DNA of 38,176 bases from a virus. The stretch is from IMG/VR virus record IMGVR_UViG_3300025736_000076, positions 1 through 38,176 of that record. One strand, given 5' to 3'. Positions 1,310-38,176 of the stretch are shown piece by piece. Position 1 is the stretch's first letter; each line of letters opens with the position of its first letter. A program made the translations under genes and the position numbers. Below the pieces are notes generated by a model, which saw only the letters and a program-made list of their open reading frames with translations, was not told where the DNA came from and did no database searches.

Positions 1310-2071
1310 ATGAAGAAAACTTGGATAACAGTCAAGCGAGGATTACTTGATCCAAAACACGTAGACCGTCTTGGTATTAGATTCTATCTATACTTGTATT
1401 GTCTTGATCAGGCAAATTGGGAACAGGGCAAAGTATTATTTTATCGTGATAGAGATGCTTCTGATGAACTCGGTATATCAATATCTACAATTCGCAAGCA
1501 AAGAGTGAAATTAGAAGAGGATGGATATATTTCATGTTTACAGAAAAGCAATCATCAGACAATAACAATTCATAATTGGACTAATCCGAGAGAATATTCT
1601 GGTGCTGTTTATAACAAGAGTACCCAAAAATGTGCACTCTTGAACGAAGAGAAAAATAAGGGTAACCATAAGGGTAACCATAAGGGTAACCATAAGGGTA
1701 ATACTACAATGGGTACTCTCTCATCTAATTCAAAAATCAAAAATCATACATCAGACGAGCAGGGTAAAATATATAATGATATGTTTGAGTATTTCATTAA
1801 TGAATGTAAATTTAGAGAACCAAAAATACCGTCTGGAAAATTCGACATTGCTTGGGACGAGCCAATTAAAGACGTTTTGCATTTAGTTGATTGGAACTTT
1901 GAAAAAGCAGTATTACTTATAAAAACTGCGGTTGAGCGAGCAGACAAAAGCCACTTATCAATTACTACACCAAAGAGTCTATTAAATATTATTCATGGGG
2001 TTGCAGGAGAGGAAGCGCGGAGTAAGTCCGTAAGTGTTGGAAAAGAATTCAATCCATCGGAGGTATTATGA
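1310..2071 (+). CDS. Replication initiator / helicase-loader-like protein (lambda O type)
   Basis: A 253-residue protein. Residues about 1-100 look like a winged helix (FYRDRDASDELGISISTIRKQRVKLEEDGYI). A hydrophilic hinge at about 105-145 carries four KGNH-type repeats. The C-terminal part is a compact helical domain like those that contact helicase. It overlaps the DnaB-type helicase gene by ATGA, the usual initiator-helicase order. The hinge is encoded by 12-bp direct repeats followed by AT-rich DNA, as in lambda gene O where the origin lies inside the gene. A DnaD-like loader is the alternative. Start: ATG 1310 after AAGGAGTTTTGAA. Confidence 0.7.
   Translation: MKKTWITVKRGLLDPKHVDRLGIRFYLYLYCLDQANWEQGKVLFYRDRDASDELGISISTIRKQRVKLEEDGYISCLQKSNHQTITIHNWTNPREYSGAVYNKSTQKCALLNEEKNKGNHKGNHKGNHKGNTTMGTLSSNSKIKNHTSDEQGKIYNDMFEYFINECKFREPKIPSGKFDIAWDEPIKDVLHLVDWNFEKAVLLIKTAVERADKSHLSITTPKSLLNIIHGVAGEEARSKSVSVGKEFNPSEVL
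1657..1702 (+). repeat. Direct 12-bp repeats inside the initiator gene: candidate origin iterons
   Basis: TAAGGGTAACCA occurs exactly at 1657-1668, 1669-1680 and 1681-1692, then a partial TAAGGGTAAT at 1693-1702. Further GGGTA words follow at about 1711 and 1762. The DNA after the array (about 1720-1800) is strongly AT-rich with runs of AAAATCAAAAATCAT, a plausible unwinding region. The repeats encode KGNH units. Confidence 0.6.
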
Positions 2072-3363
2072 AAGATCAGACTGAAATTAAGCCGATTTAT
2101 AGTGATGAGGCTGAGCAAGCAGTTCTGGGCGCGGTCTTAATAAACCAAGATGTATTCAAAACGCTTGACTTAGATGCTGATGATTTTTATGTCATTAGAC
2201 ATAGAGAAATCTGGCGGGCGTTCCAGGAGTTGGCGTTATCTGGTTCGCTGATTGACGTTCTTACGGTAGGTGAGAAACTGGGAGAAGAAAATGCAGGCTT
2301 ACTAAAATTTGTTACACACGTTCCGTCCAGTATGCACGCTGAATACTACGCTGATATTGTCCGCGAGAAATCACGCCGGCGGGACATTGTCAATTTAGCA
2401 AGTGAGATGGTCAAGTCTGCATATAAACAAGAAAGCAATTTAGATGATGATATTCCAGAATACATGACACGGTTGGTATCAAGTGCGAGAATGGACGCTG
2501 GCGCAGGTCATATTAGTGTTGCGCTAAGTGAATTATACGAAGAGATACAGGTGCGAATGAAAGACCCACTTGAGGTTTGGGGAATACCAACTGGATTTAT
2601 TGAGTATGATCTTATGACGGGAGGTCATCACCCAGGCGAAGTAACATTATTATCTGGCAAGCCTGGATTAGGCAAAAGTATTATCGCTATGCAGATGGCT
2701 GTAGGTATGGCAAGCCATTCGCCAGGCGCAATTTACGAAATGGAAATGGGGCAAACGCAGACGGTCCGGCGGTCAGTATCAAATAAAAGCAGAATAGAAA
2801 CACGTAAAATGCGAAATGGGAAAGTCAAAGATAATGAACTAGATAAGATATTAGGTGCAATAGGTGAGATGGAAAATCTTCCCATATTTATCAGCGATTT
2901 TACAGGATGGACAACCGCTTCAATGCGCGCTGATTTAGCAAGGTTGAAAGCGCAGCATAATATTCAATGGTTTATCGTGGATTATCTTTACCTATTACAA
3001 GATCGTTATGGTGGCGATGATCACGAACGTCTTGCATATATTAGTAAGGCATTGAAAATTATATGTAAGGACTTAGATTTAGCGGGTTTAGTTATTCATT
3101 CAATGACAAAGTCTGAAATGAATAGTGATAATCCTTCTCTTGCTGGCATGAGAGGATCTGGACAAATAGCTTATGATGCTGATGTAGCAATTTATTTATT
3201 AGAAGACCCACTAGATAAAGACGGCGTAAAATTATACTTTGTAAAATTCAGAGAAGATATACCGGATAGATATGTGAGATTGAAAAAAGATACAGGTTTT
3301 CCCGCGTTCAAGAACATAATTCGTGATGATAAGCCTACATACAGATTGCCATATCGTGATTAA
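2068..3363 (+). CDS. Replicative DNA helicase, DnaB family
   Basis: A 431-residue protein close to the usual DnaB length. The N-terminal domain has the family opening EAEQAVLGAVLINQD. The RecA-like domain has Walker A SGKPGLGKS (about 195-203), Walker B FIVDYLYLL (about 301-309) and a RGSGQIAYDADV motif near 365. It unwinds the replication fork as a hexamer, presumably loaded by the overlapping upstream initiator. No separate primase gene is visible, so host DnaG is probably used. The stop is followed at once by the promoter and leader of the GIY-YIG gene. Confidence 0.93.
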   Translation: MKDQTEIKPIYSDEAEQAVLGAVLINQDVFKTLDLDADDFYVIRHREIWRAFQELALSGSLIDVLTVGEKLGEENAGLLKFVTHVPSSMHAEYYADIVREKSRRRDIVNLASEMVKSAYKQESNLDDDIPEYMTRLVSSARMDAGAGHISVALSELYEEIQVRMKDPLEVWGIPTGFIEYDLMTGGHHPGEVTLLSGKPGLGKSIIAMQMAVGMASHSPGAIYEMEMGQTQTVRRSVSNKSRIETRKMRNGKVKDNELDKILGAIGEMENLPIFISDFTGWTTASMRADLARLKAQHNIQWFIVDYLYLLQDRYGGDDHERLAYISKALKIICKDLDLAGLVIHSMTKSEMNSDNPSLAGMRGSGQIAYDADVAIYLLEDPLDKDGVKLYFVKFREDIPDRYVRLKKDTGFPAFKNIIRDDKPTYRLPYRD

Positions 3364-3376
3364 AATGTGGTATACT
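3346..3376 (+). promoter_or_regulatory. Promoter of the GIY-YIG endonuclease module
   Basis: -35 TTGCCA (3346-3351, inside the helicase gene end), a 19-base spacer, and an extended -10 TG-G-TATACT (hexamer 3371-3376). The predicted start near 3383 coincides with the first base pair of the downstream leader stem at 3384, as at the HNH module. Confidence 0.5.
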
Positions 3377-3383
3377 TTCAGAT

Positions 3384-3472
3384 GATGAGAAGTAACAGTT
3401 GTTTTTATATTAGTAATTACCCGTTATCAGGCAACTGTGCTTCTCATCAAGAACACATTGATAACGGGTTTT
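3384..3472 (+). ncRNA. Pseudoknotted structured leader of the GIY-YIG gene
   Basis: P1 pairs 3384-3392 with 3440-3448 and 3395-3401 with 3432-3438 (16 perfect pairs around a TA/G internal loop). The loop segment 3420-3429 (CCCGTTATCA) pairs perfectly with 3459-3468, crossing P1, and is followed by TTTT 3469-3472. Loop 1 begins UUUUUAU and the loop after P1 is AAGAACACAT. These features match the HNH leader although the stem sequences are unrelated. The P2 hairpin plus T-run alone would look like an intrinsic terminator, so P1 and P2 may also act as a switch. The endonuclease SD AAAGG (3480-3484) lies 12 bases beyond. Confidence 0.65.
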
Positions 3473-3488
3473 ACACATTAAAGGCAAT

Positions 3489-3914
3489 ATGAAAAATTTA
3501 AGCGGAGTTTATGAAATAAAAAATATTGTAAATAATAGTTTTTATATTGGTAGTGCTGTCAATTTTAAGAATAGGTGGAAAAATCATCATAGTAGGTTAA
3601 ATAGAAACGTTCACTATAATTCTCATTTACAAAATGCCTGGAATAAGTATGGAAAAGATATGTTTGAGTTCAAAATTTTACTTGTATGTGATAAGAAAAA
3701 CAATATTATGTATGAACAAACTCTGATTGAAAAGTTAGATCGCGGAGAATCCATGAAGATATTGCCGAATAGTAGTTGTGAAAGTAACCGTATATATTAC
3801 GGAATTAGAAAGATGTTTAGAGAGGAGTTTGATATTGGCGAAATAGTAATTAGACGAAAGCGGCACTTTAGGAATGAGATTGCATATCCAACGGTAACAG
3901 TAACGAGATATTAG
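3489..3914 (+). CDS. GIY-YIG homing-type endonuclease with unrelated C-terminal tail
   Basis: A 141-residue protein. The catalytic domain has GVY (6-8), YIG (19-21), R29 and the Glu-bearing helix MYEQTLIEKLD (E76). GIY-YIG proteins usually continue here with a YNI..-type segment and a DNA-binding domain. Instead the sequence changes to RGESMKILPNSS and about 55 basic residues of no known family. The tail contains an internal ATG (MKILPNSS) and may be a remnant of another gene to which the nuclease was fused, or a diverged DNA-binding tail. It sits alone between helicase and the repeat-protein gene and is preceded by its own promoter and structured leader. Confidence 0.85.
   Translation: MKNLSGVYEIKNIVNNSFYIGSAVNFKNRWKNHHSRLNRNVHYNSHLQNAWNKYGKDMFEFKILLVCDKKNNIMYEQTLIEKLDRGESMKILPNSSCESNRIYYGIRKMFREEFDIGEIVIRRKRHFRNEIAYPTVTVTRY
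3898..3913 (+). repeat. 16-bp direct repeat, left copy
   Basis: CAGTAACGAGATATTA is identical to 4651-4666. The two copies bracket the repeat-protein gene 3931-4656: the left copy is the end of the GIY-YIG gene and the right copy spans the end of the repeat-protein gene. Such a pair is what insertion or tandem duplication of a one-gene cassette would leave. Confidence 0.85.
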
Positions 3915-3930
3915 TTTATGAGGAGGAACA

Positions 3931-4656
3931 ATGTGTGAATTTTTCAGTTTTGTAACAGAACCAGAAGGACGAGGCAATGAACGATTCTACTTTAATTGGG
4001 ATCAGCGCAAGGAAGATTTAACAGGTGAGTATGATAGTCATTCAACGATTTGCAAATACTTTAAACTGAAGGAGGATAATTGTAATAAGTATGAATACAA
4101 TCCGCTAACAAAGGAATTACAAATAGATCAAATTAATTCTGATGTTGATGATAGTGTGCAAGTTGAAGCGTGGGTTGAGAAGTTGAATTGGAAGAAGATT
4201 ATAAAACCGTTGATCATCAAGCCGATTATTCACCCATTCAGAGATATACCAGAAGTGGAGCAAGTTACAGAAGAACATATTGAATGGCTGAAAGATTTTA
4301 TTAGGGTCTGGGCTTCGGTCGGGGCTTCGGTCTGGGATTCGGTCAGGGATTCGGTCGGGGATTCGGTCAGGGATTCGGTCAGGGATTCGGTCTGGGATTC
4401 GGTCTGGGCTTCGGTCAGGGATTCGGTCGGGGATTCGGTCTGGGCTTCGGTCAGGGATTCGGTCGGGGCTTCGGTCTGGGATTCGGTCTGGGCTTCGGTC
4501 AGGGTATATGTTTCAGGATTTTTCAACATCAAGTGTGACCATGATTTTTCAAGTGGTGTGAAACTGTGGGAAGCTGGACTTATACCATCGTTTGACGGTA
4601 CGACCTGGCGGTTACACACCGGCAAAGACGCGAAAATAATTTATGAAATGCAGTAA
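3931..4656 (+). CDS. Tetrapeptide-repeat protein with conserved MCEFFSF N-terminal domain
   Basis: A 241-residue protein. The N-terminal ~115 residues (MCEFFSFVTEPEG, DSHSTICKYFKLKEDNCNKYEYNP, IKPIIHPF) look like a recurrent phage/plasmid domain of unknown function. Residues about 127-190 are sixteen tetrapeptides of form [WRG]-[AD]-S-V, followed by RVYVSGF and a C-terminal domain ending in LHTGKDAKIIYEMQ. The repeat DNA is nearly invariant, with only two variable bases per unit, so expansion or homogenisation is recent. SD GAGGAGG precedes the ATG. The gene lies between 16-bp direct repeats and may be a cassette. The biochemical role is unknown. Confidence 0.8.
   Translation: MCEFFSFVTEPEGRGNERFYFNWDQRKEDLTGEYDSHSTICKYFKLKEDNCNKYEYNPLTKELQIDQINSDVDDSVQVEAWVEKLNWKKIIKPLIIKPIIHPFRDIPEVEQVTEEHIEWLKDFIRVWASVGASVWDSVRDSVGDSVRDSVRDSVWDSVWASVRDSVGDSVWASVRDSVGASVWDSVWASVRVYVSGFFNIKCDHDFSSGVKLWEAGLIPSFDGTTWRLHTGKDAKIIYEMQ
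4309..4500 (+). repeat. 16-unit, 12-bp coding tandem repeat with two variable sites
   Basis: Every unit reads [T/A/G]GGG[C/A]TTCGGTC. Ten of 12 positions are the same in all 16 copies, including synonymous sites. Base 1 gives Trp, Arg or Gly and base 5 gives Ala or Asp. Residue order: WA GA WD RD GD RD RD WD WA RD GD WA RD GA WD WA. The combination RA never appears and base 1 is never C. Confidence 0.97.
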
Positions 4657-4678: not shown

Positions 4679-4948
4679 ATGAAAAAGAAAACAGTTTATG
4701 ATTTAGCGATTGACGATGCACCACAAAATATTTACATAAACATTAATGAAGATTGTCAGGGTAATGTTGGAACGGTAAAGGAAATTGGCAAAGAAAAAGC
4801 AAAGAAGCTATTGGGTTGCAATGAGTCAATGATCGCCACTTTGGAAATGATCCATTACGACATTGACGAGGTGGTAGCACTTGCGAGGAAAGACTTGGTT
4901 TCCCTTTACGAGAAAATCGAACGGCTAGAAGAAAAGGTAGGTAAATAA
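4679..4948 (+). CDS. Hypothetical protein with C-terminal coiled coil
   Basis: 89 residues from ATG 4679, chosen for the SD AAAGGAG seven bases upstream. An in-frame ATG at 4643 lies inside the previous gene and lacks one. The C-terminal third (IDEVVALARKDLVSLYEKIERLEEKVGK) is a heptad-like helix. The N-terminal half carries no motif I recognise. It is coupled to SSB by TAATG, so it is part of the replication operon. Confidence 0.7.
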   Translation: MKKKTVYDLAIDDAPQNIYININEDCQGNVGTVKEIGKEKAKKLLGCNESMIATLEMIHYDIDEVVALARKDLVSLYEKIERLEEKVGK

Positions 4949-5310
4949 TGCAGCAGATAATATTAGTAGGCAGGGTAGTAAAAGACGCGGAATTGCGTTA
5001 TACATCATCTGGTAAGACAGTCAGTAATTTCAACTTTGCGGTTGATGATGGATACGGAGATAATAAGAAAACCATCTGGTTCAAGTGTTCAATGTGGGAA
5101 AAGAAGGCGGAGGCATTGAATGATCACGTAACCAAAGGCACGCCACTAACGGTAATAGGTCGGCTATCTCATACAGAAGGCAACCCGCGAACCTGGACCG
5201 GAAACGATGGCGTAACTCATGCCTCTTTTGAGGTATTTGTAATAGACCTTGAATTCCAGGGTAAAGGTGGACAGAAGCAACTATCAGATGAAGTAGAAAT
5301 TCCGTTTTAG
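4948..5310 (+). CDS. ssb: Single-stranded DNA-binding protein
   Basis: A 120-residue OB-fold SSB. The family opening (IILVGRVVKDAELRYTSSGKTVSNFNFAVDD) is followed by the WFKCSMWEKKAEALNDHVTKGTPLTVIGRL core and a short linker ending in the acidic tip DEVEIPF, which recruits replication and repair partners. The conserved terminal Phe just before TAG shows that TAG is read as stop here. It binds ssDNA at the fork with the initiator and helicase upstream. Confidence 0.95.
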   Translation: MQQIILVGRVVKDAELRYTSSGKTVSNFNFAVDDGYGDNKKTIWFKCSMWEKKAEALNDHVTKGTPLTVIGRLSHTEGNPRTWTGNDGVTHASFEVFVIDLEFQGKGGQKQLSDEVEIPF

Positions 5311-5623: not shown

Positions 5624-5971
5624 ATGAAAACCTGGAAAGAAACGGTTACGCGCAGACAAGGCGAAAATATGGGAAAAATTGATATGAGTTATGACTGGAA
5701 TCAATATAATACATATCCGAATCATCCTGAAAGATCTGTTGAAAAAGGTAAGTTATTACAAGAAATTGAAAAACTATTCCATGATGGCAAAAAACTACGG
5801 GTATTTTATTCCGGTAATTTTGCTGGTGAAGTTGTTGACGTTGGTATGTGGGACGGTTGGCCATTTTGGAAACCTACACCATCAGTTCGGTTACGACATT
5901 GGCACGGTTGCGAATGGCATTTCTGGTATGACGTAAATAGTTATAAAGTCATTAAGACTGATGACAACTGA
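5624..5971 (+). CDS. Hypothetical protein, Trp-rich
   Basis: 115 residues. The second half has many aromatic residues (GMWDGWPFWKPTPSVRLRHWHGCEWHFWYD), suggesting a compact beta barrel in which DGWPFW and W..C.WHFW form the core. ATG 5624 follows a strong AAGGAGG. An internal ATG at 5669 would remove the basic N-terminus and cannot be excluded. It overlaps the next gene by 11 bases. Function unknown. Confidence 0.65.
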   Translation: MKTWKETVTRRQGENMGKIDMSYDWNQYNTYPNHPERSVEKGKLLQEIEKLFHDGKKLRVFYSGNFAGEVVDVGMWDGWPFWKPTPSVRLRHWHGCEWHFWYDVNSYKVIKTDDN

Positions 5972-6305
5972 GAAGCGATGGCGTGAGATAAAGGAAACCG
6001 TTTATCAGGATCAGGGCGGAGTGTGTCAAGTGTGTAAACATCCATACGGGATAGACTATTTAGCCAGACATCACGCCATTTATTCCAGGGATAAGAGGTT
6101 TAGCAAGTTCCTTAATAGCGAGGAGAATATTGTCCTGCTATGTGTCAAGTGTCATGGTGGCGCGAAACACGGAAGATTGCTGCATTGGATGAGGCGCAAC
6201 ATGTTCTGGATAGACAAAATCGATCAAGGGTATGATATGATTACCTGGCACGATAGCATACCGATGTTAGAGAAAGACCACTTTATTTATACTAAGGAGG
6301 AGTAA
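5961..6305 (+). CDS. HNH-family nuclease
   Basis: A 114-residue protein with CQVC (about 22-25), RHHAIYSRD (the double His at the HNH core), N and LLCVKCHGGAKHG at about 55-68, that is C-x2-C...H-H...N...C-x2-C-H. It resembles HNH nucleases found in early phage operons. Unlike the endonuclease at 907, it has no promoter or leader of its own: it starts inside the preceding gene, so it is co-transcribed and more likely a resident replication or repair protein. Confidence 0.75.
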   Translation: MTTEKRWREIKETVYQDQGGVCQVCKHPYGIDYLARHHAIYSRDKRFSKFLNSEENIVLLCVKCHGGAKHGRLLHWMRRNMFWIDKIDQGYDMITWHDSIPMLEKDHFIYTKEE

Positions 6306-12666: not shown

Positions 12667-13184
12667 TGTTAGAAGTAATTGACACAAGGGCAACAGCTAT
12701 TAATCAAGAACACGAGTTATTCCAGCAATCAATGCGTACGGGATTAGAACACGCTATCAGGTGTGGCGAACTGTTGGTAGAGGCAAAGGGGTTTACTGGC
12801 TGGGGCGATTGGATGGATTGGGTAAAAAGCAACTGCGCATTTGGTCAAAGTATGGCTGAAAAGTATATGAAGCTCGCTACAAATTCGGAACGCGTTACGA
12901 ATTTACCACAAGGCACTTCAATCCGTGAAGCGTTGAGGATACTATCAACTCCAAAAGAAAAGCGAATACAGCCACAAGAACCAGAAGTAGAAAAGGTAAC
13001 CGCCTTCTCTTGGATACGAGACGAGGGTATTGTCGCTATGGATGAGGCAAAGACGATAATTAGAAATGGCGTATCAAGGTTATTGGGTACTACTGTTGAC
13101 GTTGGTGTGGCTGATTATTTATTGGGCAACTTTAGAACATGGCTGGATAGAGAAATCAAGAGAATTGATAACCACCTTGAGTAA
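12666..13184 (+). CDS. DUF3102-like protein
   Basis: 172 residues. The N-terminal 65 residues match the DUF3102 plan: helix with H.E....M...LEHAI..GELL.EAK, then WGDWMDWVKSNCAFGQSMAEKYMKLA. DUF3102 proteins are common on mobile elements; their molecular role is poorly known but resembles DNA-associated regulators. The C-terminal half is unfamiliar. The last 52 bases are repeated at the window start, so the gene's end borders a recombination or assembly junction. It is out of place in a head-gene block. Confidence 0.7.
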   Translation: MLEVIDTRATAINQEHELFQQSMRTGLEHAIRCGELLVEAKGFTGWGDWMDWVKSNCAFGQSMAEKYMKLATNSERVTNLPQGTSIREALRILSTPKEKRIQPQEPEVEKVTAFSWIRDEGIVAMDEAKTIIRNGVSRLLGTTVDVGVADYLLGNFRTWLDREIKRIDNHLE

Positions 13185-13189
13185 TCAAG

Positions 13190-13210
13190 AATACCGTAAA
13201 GTGGTATTAT
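13190..13210 (+). promoter_or_regulatory. Extended -10 promoter inside a dyad
   Basis: TG-G-TATTAT with hexamer 13205-13210. AATACC (13190-13195) and GGTATT (13203-13208) are inverted around 7 bases. A very similar dyad, ATAATACC-N8-GGTATTAT, lies at 35534-35557. The right arm overlaps the -10, so the dyad could be an operator. It would serve the genes at 13225 onwards. Confidence 0.5.
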
Positions 13211-13224
13211 GATGATGGGTAACG

Positions 13225-13317
13225 ATGAACGATAGAGAATGGGAGGACTTCTTCAAGATGTTACGCGCAGCACTATTGCGGATTGTCAGATGGATCGAGA
13301 AAAAATACGGATGGTAG
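13225..13317 (+). CDS. 30-residue hypothetical peptide
   Basis: MNDREWEDFFKMLRAALLRI VRWIEKKYGW: amphipathic helix rich in Arg/Lys and Trp. Its first codons are shared with the chimeric gene at 93 and its DFF segment with the gene at 37975. A membrane-active or short regulatory peptide is possible. Too short for a confident call. Confidence 0.4.
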   Translation: MNDREWEDFFKMLRAALLRIVRWIEKKYGW

Positions 13318-13323
13318 TATAAT
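13318..13323 (+). promoter_or_regulatory. -10 box TATAAT
   Basis: Consensus TATAAT just after the preceding stop, about 19 bases before the gene at 13342. There is no strong -35 and no TG extension. Confidence 0.35.
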
Positions 13324-13341
13324 TGATGATAGGAGGTAGTG

Positions 13342-13449
13342 ATGATTATATTAAAAGGATTGGTTATATTTACCGCTATCATAACTGTTGTGTGTATTAT
13401 TCAATTTGTGCGAGTAATGATTGCGGGTGTACCAGACGAATTGTTATGA
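13342..13449 (+). CDS. 35-residue single-TM peptide
   Basis: MIILKGLVIFTAIITVVCII then QFVRVMIAGVPDELL: one hydrophobic helix and a short polar tail. Strong SD AGGAGG eight bases upstream, and its own TATAAT. A small membrane peptide of unknown role. Confidence 0.55.
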   Translation: MIILKGLVIFTAIITVVCIIQFVRVMIAGVPDELL

Positions 13450-28015: not shown

Positions 28016-28521
28016 AAATGAATACAAAAATGAAAATTATAAATGCTAAAGATTACATGAAACGAGAACGCGTTAATTCTATGAAAGAACGGATTAATAA
28101 AATCTGCGCAAGAATGGGAGGAACGCTTGATACTCCATTTGTAGATTGTGAACCTATTGGGAAGCCTGTTTATGCGGAAGTTAATTTTGGTCAATGGGTT
28201 GCAAAGTGCCAATGTGGTGGAGCTGAGACGGTTGATCCAGACGAGCCAATATTCTATTGTTTCTCATGTGGAAATTTTGAGAATCATGGAAAGCCACGCA
28301 AAGTAATATTCCCTTCTAAGAAGGAAATTAAAGACATTGAAACAGTATTATTGAAGAGACCTGTTATTATCAAGGGAGGCACGCACGTGATTGAAAGAAC
28401 AGTAAATGCTGAACCTGTTATAATAGATGATAAGGGAGTGTTATCAAGATCATGGCTCCCAGGAGAAACAGTAAAGCATTTGAGAAAAGAAAATAAAGAA
28501 TCCATTAAGGCGGTGAAGTAA
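28009..28521 (+). CDS. Cys-containing hypothetical protein
   Basis: 170 residues. A basic N-terminus precedes CQCGGAETVDPDEPIFYCFSCGN, a zinc-ribbon-like C-x-C...C-x2-C, which resembles small zinc proteins inserted among tail genes. It overlaps the baseplate gene by 7 bases; internal starts at 28012 (GTG) and 28018 (ATG) are possible. Role unknown. Confidence 0.6.
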   Translation: MVKMNTKMKIINAKDYMKRERVNSMKERINKICARMGGTLDTPFVDCEPIGKPVYAEVNFGQWVAKCQCGGAETVDPDEPIFYCFSCGNFENHGKPRKVIFPSKKEIKDIETVLLKRPVIIKGGTHVIERTVNAEPVIIDDKGVLSRSWLPGETVKHLRKENKESIKAVK

Positions 28522-29267
28522 TGGCAAGGTCTGCAATCCCCCTGTACGTAACCAACCAAGTTATCACAGCCGCACACATGAATACATACGTAAGGGATAA
28601 TGAGGCCGCTGCTTGGGTTGGAACATTAGCCGGAGATATAGATTATTATACTGGCGCAACAACTAAAAGTAGACTTGGGATTGGAACGGCTGGTGAATCG
28701 CTTATTGTAAATGTCGGTGAAACTGCTCCTGAGTGGGGAAGTGGTGGAGCATTTCATTTGATTGAAGAAAAATTAGCTGGCGGCGCAGTAGCAAGTTTTG
28801 ACTTCACGGCAATACCTGCTACATATACAAACTTGAAGATAATATGCAATCTCAGGGGCGACTCTGTCGCTACATCAGCTACACTAGAAGTTACTGTAAA
28901 TGGAGATGGTGGCGCGAATTACGATTTGCGTGATTTAGCAACAGTTAGCGGAGGAACAATAACAAGTGTTTCTACGCTTGGTGATACCGACTGGGCTGTT
29001 ATACAAATGACCGCCTCAACTGGTACAGCTAGCCACACAGGTTCTGCTGATATGTTGTTTATAGATTATGCAAACACAACTTTCAAAAAAAATATGATAT
29101 GTCATGGATTTGTAAAATATGCACAAGCCACAGCAAATACTGATATGATGTTTAAGACAACCGGCGGAACATGGCGGAGTACAGCAGCAATTAATCAGAT
29201 AACATTAACATTAAGAGCTGGGAATATAATAGCTGGCTCAAAGGCATCTTTGTACGGAATAAAATAA
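28521..29267 (+). CDS. Tail fibre-like protein
   Basis: 248 residues. MARSAIPLYVTNQVITAAHM NTYVRDNEAA is a common virion-anchoring opening in phage fibres. Next comes a Gly/Thr-rich linker (TKSRLGIGTAGESLIVN) and a beta-sandwich C-terminal domain ending KASLYGIK. Receptor binding is inferred from position and composition. TAATG coupling to the next gene. Confidence 0.68.
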   Translation: MARSAIPLYVTNQVITAAHMNTYVRDNEAAAWVGTLAGDIDYYTGATTKSRLGIGTAGESLIVNVGETAPEWGSGGAFHLIEEKLAGGAVASFDFTAIPATYTNLKIICNLRGDSVATSATLEVTVNGDGGANYDLRDLATVSGGTITSVSTLGDTDWAVIQMTASTGTASHTGSADMLFIDYANTTFKKNMICHGFVKYAQATANTDMMFKTTGGTWRSTAAINQITLTLRAGNIIAGSKASLYGIK

Positions 29268-29602: not shown

Positions 29603-30241
29603 ATGGCACGATCAACATTAAGTTATGTGGCAATAAAGACTTGCCAGAGATGTGGACTTGATAAGCCAATAGGTGAGTTCCATAAAGACAAAAACCAAAA
29701 AGACGGGCACGCAAATTGGTGTAAAGGTTGTGTTGCAGAATATGGAAAAGAATATCACAAGCGGCCAGACGTTAAGAAGAGAATAGCTAAGTCTAAACAC
29801 GAGTATCAAATAAAAAATAAAGACAGGTTGGCTGCAAAGAAAAGAGAATACTATTTAGCAAACAAAGAGATTATATCTGAGCGTGGAAAGATATACAGCC
29901 AAAGCCCAAGCGCTAAAAAGAAGAGAAGGGCATATTGCAAACGAAACAAAGAAAGAATAGCTGAACGACATAAGGAATATATATTAGTTAAGAATTACGG
30001 GATTACTATTGAAGAACGAAACAAAATTATAGACGAGCAAAACGGTAGGTGCGCTATTTGCGGAAACGAATTAGATATGGCAACAAATACACACGTTGAT
30101 CACGACCACGATACAGGAATGGTTAGGGGAATATTATGTTATCACTGCAACATGGCGATAGGGTTGCTTATGGATGATCCAGATATCGCTAAAAAAGCAA
30201 CTGAATATTTAACTAAATATAAAGAGGTACAGAATGGCTAG
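29603..30241 (+). CDS. Recombination endonuclease VII homologue
   Basis: 212 residues. The N-terminal zinc ribbon is CQRC (14-17)...CKGC (40-43), with a KxIxEFHKDKNQKDGHANWC motif. A long basic coiled region follows. The C-terminal His-Me finger is RCAICGNELD..THVDHDHDTGMVRGILCYHCNMAIGLLMDDP, the endo VII signature with HVDHDH catalytic loop. Usually resolves junctions before packaging. Here it is inserted between two tail-fibre genes, suggesting a mobile insertion. SD AAGGAG. Confidence 0.9.
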   Translation: MARSTLSYVAIKTCQRCGLDKPIGEFHKDKNQKDGHANWCKGCVAEYGKEYHKRPDVKKRIAKSKHEYQIKNKDRLAAKKREYYLANKEIISERGKIYSQSPSAKKKRRAYCKRNKERIAERHKEYILVKNYGITIEERNKIIDEQNGRCAICGNELDMATNTHVDHDHDTGMVRGILCYHCNMAIGLLMDDPDIAKKATEYLTKYKEVQNG

Positions 30242-37978: not shown

Positions 37979-38145
37979 TTGATCCAACTAATAAAGAATG
38001 GCGATACATTATCACCCCCGATGGCAGGGCGGAGGTGGACTTCTTCACAGAAGATGGTCATGTGTGGGTATGGTTAGGTGAATTCGATAAGCGGAACAGA
38101 AGGGAACACCGCTGTTATGATTGTAAAGATTGCGAGGAAGAGTGA
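37975..38145 (+). CDS. Small protein with CYDCKDC tail
   Basis: 56 residues from ATG 37975: MIDPTNKEWRYIITPDGRAE VDFFTEDGHVWVWLGEFDK..., ending HRCYDCKDCEEE. It is the intact parent of the chimeric gene at 93. Its end plus the next gene's start match positions 110-252, which gives the circular closure. Unknown function. Confidence 0.65.
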   Translation: MIDPTNKEWRYIITPDGRAEVDFFTEDGHVWVWLGEFDKRNRREHRCYDCKDCEEE

Positions 38146-38176
38146 TGAATGACCGGAATAAATATCCGAAAATCAA
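38145..38176 (+). CDS. Start of the DUF551-like gene (cut by the window end)
   Basis: First codons MNDRNKYPKI of the protein complete at 221-412, with one base change (T230 versus C38154) that makes Trp4 into Arg. Confidence 0.85.
   Translation, partial: MNDRNKYPKI

Follow-up and report, generated by a model that had tools for sequence, protein, structure and literature searches.

Promoter-proximal, pseudoknot-capable leaders precede a GIY-YIG and an HNH endonuclease gene in a tailed-phage genome

Phage homing endonucleases are an established case of translation controlled through the structure of the leader (PMC2988022). In T4 and its relatives, hairpins confined to the long transcripts mask the ribosome-binding sites (RBS) of I-TevI, I-TevII, I-TevIII, segB and mobE (PMC2988022). 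The leader of T4 gene 32 was called in 2010 perhaps the sole viral pseudoknot in translational autoregulation (PMC3014915), and no homing endonuclease with a pseudoknot leader was found in the literature searched. Expression of a homing endonuclease must suffice for its spread and yet spare the phage from harm, and the known solution of T4 is a hairpin plus the position of the promoter.

The window analysed here, IMG/VR record IMGVR_UViG_3300025736_000076, is a 38,176-base stretch from a tailed phage whose two ends overlap. Its terminase and helicase share about 22-31% identity with phage records, so that the deposited relatives are only distant, and searches of viral contigs yielded no helpful close relatives of the GIY-YIG, HNH or helicase proteins. 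Positions 1-123 match 13133-13255 and positions 110-252 match 38034-38176, the ends overlapping like those of a circular genome; the first ~109 bases, which duplicate 13133-13241, are probably an assembly tip.

The replication module runs in the order HNH endonuclease (907-1308), DnaD-like loader (1310-2071), DnaB-like helicase (2068-3363) and GIY-YIG endonuclease (3489-3914), and both endonuclease cassettes adjoin replication genes. The GIY-YIG gene (+ strand) encodes 141 aa matching PF01541 (E=1e-9) and the homing endonuclease family phrog_7168 (E=7e-21), with Y8, Y19, R29 and E76 invariant across relatives. The HNH gene, also on the + strand, encodes 133 aa matching PF14279 (E=1.1e-14). The leaders lie in the gaps at 3364-3488 (GIY-YIG) and 758-906 (HNH). 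The other two HNH-type genes (5961-6305 and 29603-30241) have no such leader and no gap after the preceding gene. The GIY-YIG gene behind DnaB has a parallel in the crAss-like Kolpuevirus 'frurule', where two annotated pieces of a DnaB helicase enclose a GIY-YIG gene (L122:930-2769). Downstream of the GIY-YIG gene of the window, ORF 3931-4656 contains short near-identical repeats (4305-4504; protein DSVxDSVx) and has no Pfam or PHROG match. A single-strand-binding-like protein is encoded at 4948-5310. The stretch GTTTTTATATT of the GIY-YIG leader reappears at 3538-3548, inside the gene at its YIG motif (NNSFYIGS); the leader copy would translate as NSCFYIS.

Both leaders begin with promoter-like boxes on the + strand. 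In the GIY-YIG leader the -35 TTGCCA (3346-3351) falls within the final codons of the gene for the DnaB-like helicase, and the extended -10 TGTGGTATACT (TGG-TATACT, 3366-3376) follows after a long spacer of 19 nt; this promoter is absent from the list produced by the promoter scan, which allowed spacers of 16-18. The HNH leader promoter (759-786) was found by that scan, with TTGCAA, a 16 nt spacer and TATCAT preceded by TGG. The string TGTGGTATNNT occurs twice in the window, only at the two leaders, where 0.42 occurrences are expected; two were reached by 6 of 100 shuffles. The +1 of the GIY-YIG transcript, which we infer from its spacing, is the A at 3382, 6 nt past the -10 as in the HNH leader. 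P1 begins 7 nt past the last -10 base in both leaders, which is the expected +1 or one base off.

In the GIY-YIG leader, P1 pairs 3383-3401 with 3432-3449 (duplex energy -24.3 kcal/mol). The outer part has 10 bp (UGAUGAGAAG at 3383-3392 with CUUCUCAUCA at 3440-3449) and the inner part 7 bp (ACAGUUG at 3395-3401 with CAACUGU at 3432-3438), making a stem of 17-18 bp with 17 Watson-Crick pairs, the wobble U3393.G3439 and one bulged A. The first-pass annotation had put +1 at the base of a 16-bp stem (3384-3401/3432-3448); the boxes and the position of P1 at the predicted +1 bear this out, while the stem is longer and starts at 3383. L1 (3402-3419, 18 nt) starts with UUUUUAU, common to the HNH leader, and is followed by the P2 5' strand CCCGUUAUCA (3420-3429). 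As that annotation had described, this strand pairs perfectly over 10 bp with UGAUAACGGG (3459-3468; -14.4 kcal/mol), directly before TTTT, and P2 can be extended by A3419-U3469. L2 has 2 nt, and L3 (3450-3458, 9 nt) is A-rich, reading AAGAACA with A3449. Beyond P2' come the U-run UUUU (3469-3472), a weak terminator tail that continues into ACAC, the Shine-Dalgarno sequence (SD) AAAGG (3480-3484) and the ATG at 3489.

In the HNH leader, P1 pairs 793-808 with 846-861 in 15 bp and one mismatch (calculated duplex energy -21.2 kcal/mol), and P2 pairs 824-836 with 884-896 in 13 bp, one of them G-U (-15.9 kcal/mol). The order P1, UUUUUAU, P2, P1', AAxAACA, P2' is therefore found in both leaders, as first proposed. 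The trailing U-run that was proposed as a further common element is not shared: HNH P2 extends beyond its 7-bp core, the supposed U-run falls inside P2', and the SD AAGAGG (897-902) follows directly. The HNH L1 (807-823) is also complementary to 28505-28526, around the start of the gene at 28521 (-15.6 kcal/mol including G-U pairs), a value equalled by 8 of 400 shuffled L1s tested against 40 genes.

The window was scanned blind, on both strands, with a scorer for H-type pseudoknots that combines P1, with small internal loops permitted, and a perfect crossing P2. The GIY-YIG leader takes the top rank (65.5), followed by the HNH leader (63.0), in agreement with the original proposal of a pseudoknot-capable, promoter-proximal leader before both genes; the next unrelated match on the + strand scores 50, and the reverse-complement images of both leaders score too. 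Across 300 dinucleotide shuffles per 205-base leader region, means are 35.1 (GIY-YIG) and 33.6 (HNH) and maxima 50.5 and 51.5, giving z of about 7 for each leader. The comparison DNA, made up of 118 pattern-picked phage loci plus the initial 50 kb of the T4 genome (2.2 million strand-bases), reaches a maximum of 62.0, in sequence of 55% GC, and holds nothing at 60 or above where GC is <=48%; no pseudoknot of comparable score was found in the T4 portion. The leader pseudoknots are far past chance expectation, and both helices have very probably been selected as RNA.

Strong 5' stems stabilise bacterial mRNAs, and P1 of each leader starts from the predicted +1; a blunt 5'-terminal stem might shield the phage mRNA against 5'-end-dependent decay without any switching. 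This explanation is unlikely, since it does not account for the second interlocking helix kept in both leaders. The predicted +1 is also the A of an ATG equally distant from the -10 in both leaders, so that the transcript could start with AUG (3382; 792) as a leaderless upstream ORF, read through the structure and coupled to the endonuclease. The candidate ORFs are 3382-3492 (36 aa), whose stop overlaps the GIY-YIG start (ATGA), and 792-929 (45 codons). That frame alone is open in both leaders (0.094 and 0.060 of shuffles), and the common UGUUUUUAU translates as Cys-Phe-Tyr in both, but the peptides diverge past CFY and homologue searches with both found none. The start codon would moreover be buried by P1, and the HNH frame stays open far upstream too, which makes translation of such an ORF a very improbable account of the leaders.

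The two leaders are probably of common descent, judging from their alignment. The alignment that spans the -35 region through the start codon scores 37, matched by 1 of 3000 shuffle pairs; from +1, with the promoter left out, it scores 27, matched by 65 of 3000. A score of 37 is reached by chance once elsewhere in the genome, through a gapped coding alignment at 13241-13440, and this apparent third leader was rejected as a small coding sequence lacking the structure. Matched pair by pair, P1 has 11 of 16 pairs identical, four two-sided changes with pairing kept (A-U to U-A, U-A to C-G, A-U to C-G, G-C to A-U) and one change to an A.G mismatch. P2 is changed nearly throughout with its pairing retained, while UUUUUAU in L1, AAxAACA in L3 and the -10 are kept. 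The first-pass annotation had taken the stem sequences to differ, which is true of P2 and untrue of most of P1. It had also read the shared architecture as evidence of function rather than copying, and the two are not exclusive: ancestry is probably shared, and if the leaders are homologous, the compensating changes in P1 and the re-paired P2 make a stronger argument for RNA function. With two copies only, this covariation argument depends on the probable homology.

There are two further explanations. Interlocked inverted repeats could act at the DNA level, as an operator or a homing site, and T4 I-TevI does bind an operator over its own promoter (PMC2988022). The repeat sequences differ between the copies and yet still pair, P1 stands in phase with the promoter and the U-rich and A-rich loops are orientation-specific, all of which render a DNA element extremely unlikely. 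A second possibility is that the pseudoknot is bound by a protein, either the endonuclease or a phage replication protein, that represses translation in the manner of gp32 on the T4 gene 32 leader, which is a phage precedent (PMC3014915). Both cassettes flank replication genes, but an architecture common to two unrelated endonucleases makes self-recognition by both unlikely, and the stem sequences differ between the leaders. Binding is a candidate role only, and repression by a bound protein appears improbable.

Folding predictions suggest two competing states. Folded at increasing transcript lengths, each leader has the P1 hairpin as its predicted minimum up to the point at which P2' and the ribosome-binding region emerge. 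The later minimum in both is a nested fold in which P2 is extended and L1 is paired to the ribosome-binding region. For the GIY-YIG SD the predicted unpaired fraction is 0.26 when the full nested ensemble is considered, and forcing P1 raises it to 0.89. The HNH AUG is unpaired at 0.09 in the nested ensemble, and once both helices are formed the HNH SD and AUG come out 91-96% unpaired. The GIY-YIG AUG is unpaired at only 0.06 with P1 and P2 formed and L1 free; in a real pseudoknot L1 would be confined. Rough pseudoknot energies are -31.5 (GIY-YIG) and -26.5 (HNH) before downstream structure, and the nested minima are -31.4 and -35.1, so that by these estimates the two folds appear close in energy. 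A steric point against the pseudoknot is that the 9-nt L3 must cross the 17-18-bp P1, which is tight.

Complementarity of L1 to the RBS is not beyond composition (shuffle fractions 0.04-0.19), so the masking partner may be incidental and the open/masked mechanism is drawn from the energies. In the HNH leader the 3' part of P2' (AUUUAUUU) can form a local pairing with GGAUAAAU that spans the RBS if P1 is the only helix formed, and P2 in the pseudoknot would thereby free the RBS. In longer GIY-YIG transcripts that include the -10 sequence, pairing of UACUUUCA to the 5' arm of P1 lowers the predicted accessibility of the SD further, to 0.01-0.05; the folding prediction gave no such effect for the HNH leader.

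In the nested folds P1 and the extended P2 fold are mutually exclusive, and in the GIY-YIG leader UUUU comes after the GGG base of P2. These features would fit a transcription attenuator, with P2 and the U-run as intrinsic terminator and P1 as anti-terminator. A switch between termination and readthrough had been suggested as an alternative to a stable pseudoknot; as a common property of the leaders it is not supported. The GIY-YIG leader fits it weakly, having only four U's and a 29-nt loop, and was not called by the terminator scan. The HNH leader does not fit at all, with nothing U-rich after P2', and it likewise yielded no call in that scan. The GC-rich, short-loop hairpin with a direct U-tract that marks an intrinsic terminator is present in neither leader, and attenuation is quite unlikely.

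The reading preferred here is that each leader is the 5' part of an endonuclease cassette that is self-contained, with its own promoter, a structured leader and the gene, and that the leader gates translation, with the pseudoknot open and the nested fold masked; confidence in this is evenly balanced. Action of the leader in cis on endonuclease expression, of whatever kind, is somewhat better favoured, while the specific open/masked switch is tentative and rather doubtful. In the proposed sequence of events, the cassette sits directly behind a replication gene, and RNA polymerase would start at or beside the base of P1, so that P1 would fold first as a blunt 5'-terminal hairpin. As P2' emerges it would pair with the P1 loop and close an H-type pseudoknot, the form presumed in solution. 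In the alternative nested fold, of near-equal predicted energy, P2 would be kept, P1 opened and the U-rich leader segment brought into pairing with the region of the ribosome-binding site. The P1/P2 pseudoknot would correspond to an open ribosome site (ON) and the nested fold to a masked one (OFF), whatever trigger may favour either. The leader would in this way probably set the timing or level of endonuclease translation.

Leaders of this kind were sought in other phages. The leader DNA gave chance matches only against 50,697 phage records. Scans of 2.9 million viral contigs with the pattern GTTTTTATNTT..TTCTC..AANAACA found no leader with the structure, and those with TGGTAT..GAGAA..GTTTTTAT found none among the matches listed; within that scope, no further UUUUUAU...AANAACA leaders, which the first-pass annotation had proposed to look for, turned up. 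In Rfam (riboswitches, group I intron, HEARO, ribozymes) nothing in the window passes the gathering threshold, and lax thresholds give chance-level matches only. Relatives of the capsid protein in genome assemblies (L298-L300) were set aside, since at 59-66% GC their matches are driven by composition only. Upstream of HNH relatives (80 loci), 3 of 79 stretches have z>3 with a weak P2, and they are not counted as pseudoknot leaders.

Strong pseudoknots (z>3) occur upstream of the GIY-YIG genes of other viruses in 3 of 87 stretches (L173, L203, L164) versus 1 of 166 control stretches, a difference that is not significant alone and that establishes neither an enrichment nor a general rule for GIY-YIG genes. 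One leader family comprises L173 (L294:788-905), L164 (L295:4303-4427, minus strand), L297 and L296 (3254-3378, minus strand). Its leaders precede GIY-YIG genes in the first two, whereas that of L296 precedes a different ORF without a Pfam match. Within this family P1 and P2 vary with pairing kept, and a U-run follows P1; L296 and L297 have terminase-like genes downstream of the cassette. The leader before the GIY-YIG gene of L203 (563-664) is unrelated in sequence and offers the same choice to its P2 arm. The P2 5' arm pairs about equally with P2' or the RBS in all of these (shuffled-arm fractions 0.018 for L294/L173, 0.018 for L295/L164, 0.024 for L203 and 0.003 for L296), a pairing with the RBS that is absent from the two leaders of the window. 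The family and L203 are independent pseudoknot leaders, analogues and not relatives of those in the window, and the RBS switch is clearer there.

A wider reading is that an extended -10 promoter and a +1-phased pseudoknot leader form a portable expression module that accompanies homing endonuclease genes from more than one nuclease family. It further supposes that different phage lineages came independently to pseudoknot leaders with an arm that can take either a decoy or the ribosome-binding site as its partner, and such leaders would be a new class of cis-regulatory RNA belonging to selfish genes. This combined proposal is speculative and, on balance, somewhat unlikely. If the GIY-YIG and HNH genes do have a promoter-plus-pseudoknot cassette in common, nuclease families would be seen to share or exchange a regulatory leader, and the gene 32 case would be joined by another kind of leader pseudoknot in phages.

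Several known systems share single features with these leaders. HEARO and IscB-omegaRNA also place a structured RNA beside an HNH gene, but the 133-aa HNH protein of the window matches HNH domains only and there is no Rfam match. Type III toxin-antitoxin systems (ToxIN), with tandem pseudoknot repeats before a ToxN-fold RNase, are ruled out, the element here being single-copy and its product GIY-YIG or HNH. The seg43(25) hairpin of Aeromonas phage 25 (PMC2988022) is, as here, a very stable structure upstream of a homing endonuclease RBS in which sequestration is not clear; it is a hairpin without a second copy before another family, whereas the window has a pseudoknot.

The closest systems are the sequestering leaders of the T4 type (I-TevI/II/III, segB and Aeh1 mobE; PMC2988022) and the gene 32 leader of T4, T2 and RB69 (PMC3014915, PMC535899). 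Like the former, the leaders of the window are structured, adjoin a GIY-YIG or HNH endonuclease gene and have a predicted nested fold that may mask the ribosome-binding region. The predicted nested minimum buries the SD (GIY-YIG) or the AUG (HNH) and the competing pseudoknot would free the site, with L1:RBS pairing not beyond composition. The T4-type leader is a simple hairpin whose short transcript lacks the 5' arm, whereas the window has an H-type pseudoknot with its promoter upstream of the whole structure. The -10 ends at 3376 or 786, before P1, and even a short transcript keeps both arms. Like the gene 32 leader, the two leaders have an H-type pseudoknot upstream of the RBS of a phage gene, with two interlocked stems in the sequence before the SD. 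They differ in the gene that follows, in their larger stems and in lacking a UUAA repeat tract between pseudoknot and start, and they are a candidate operator without a known binding protein. The leaders of the window mix traits of the T4 hairpins and the gene 32 pseudoknot without fully matching either definition, and, in a further difference from the T4 type, one architecture serves two endonuclease families within one genome.
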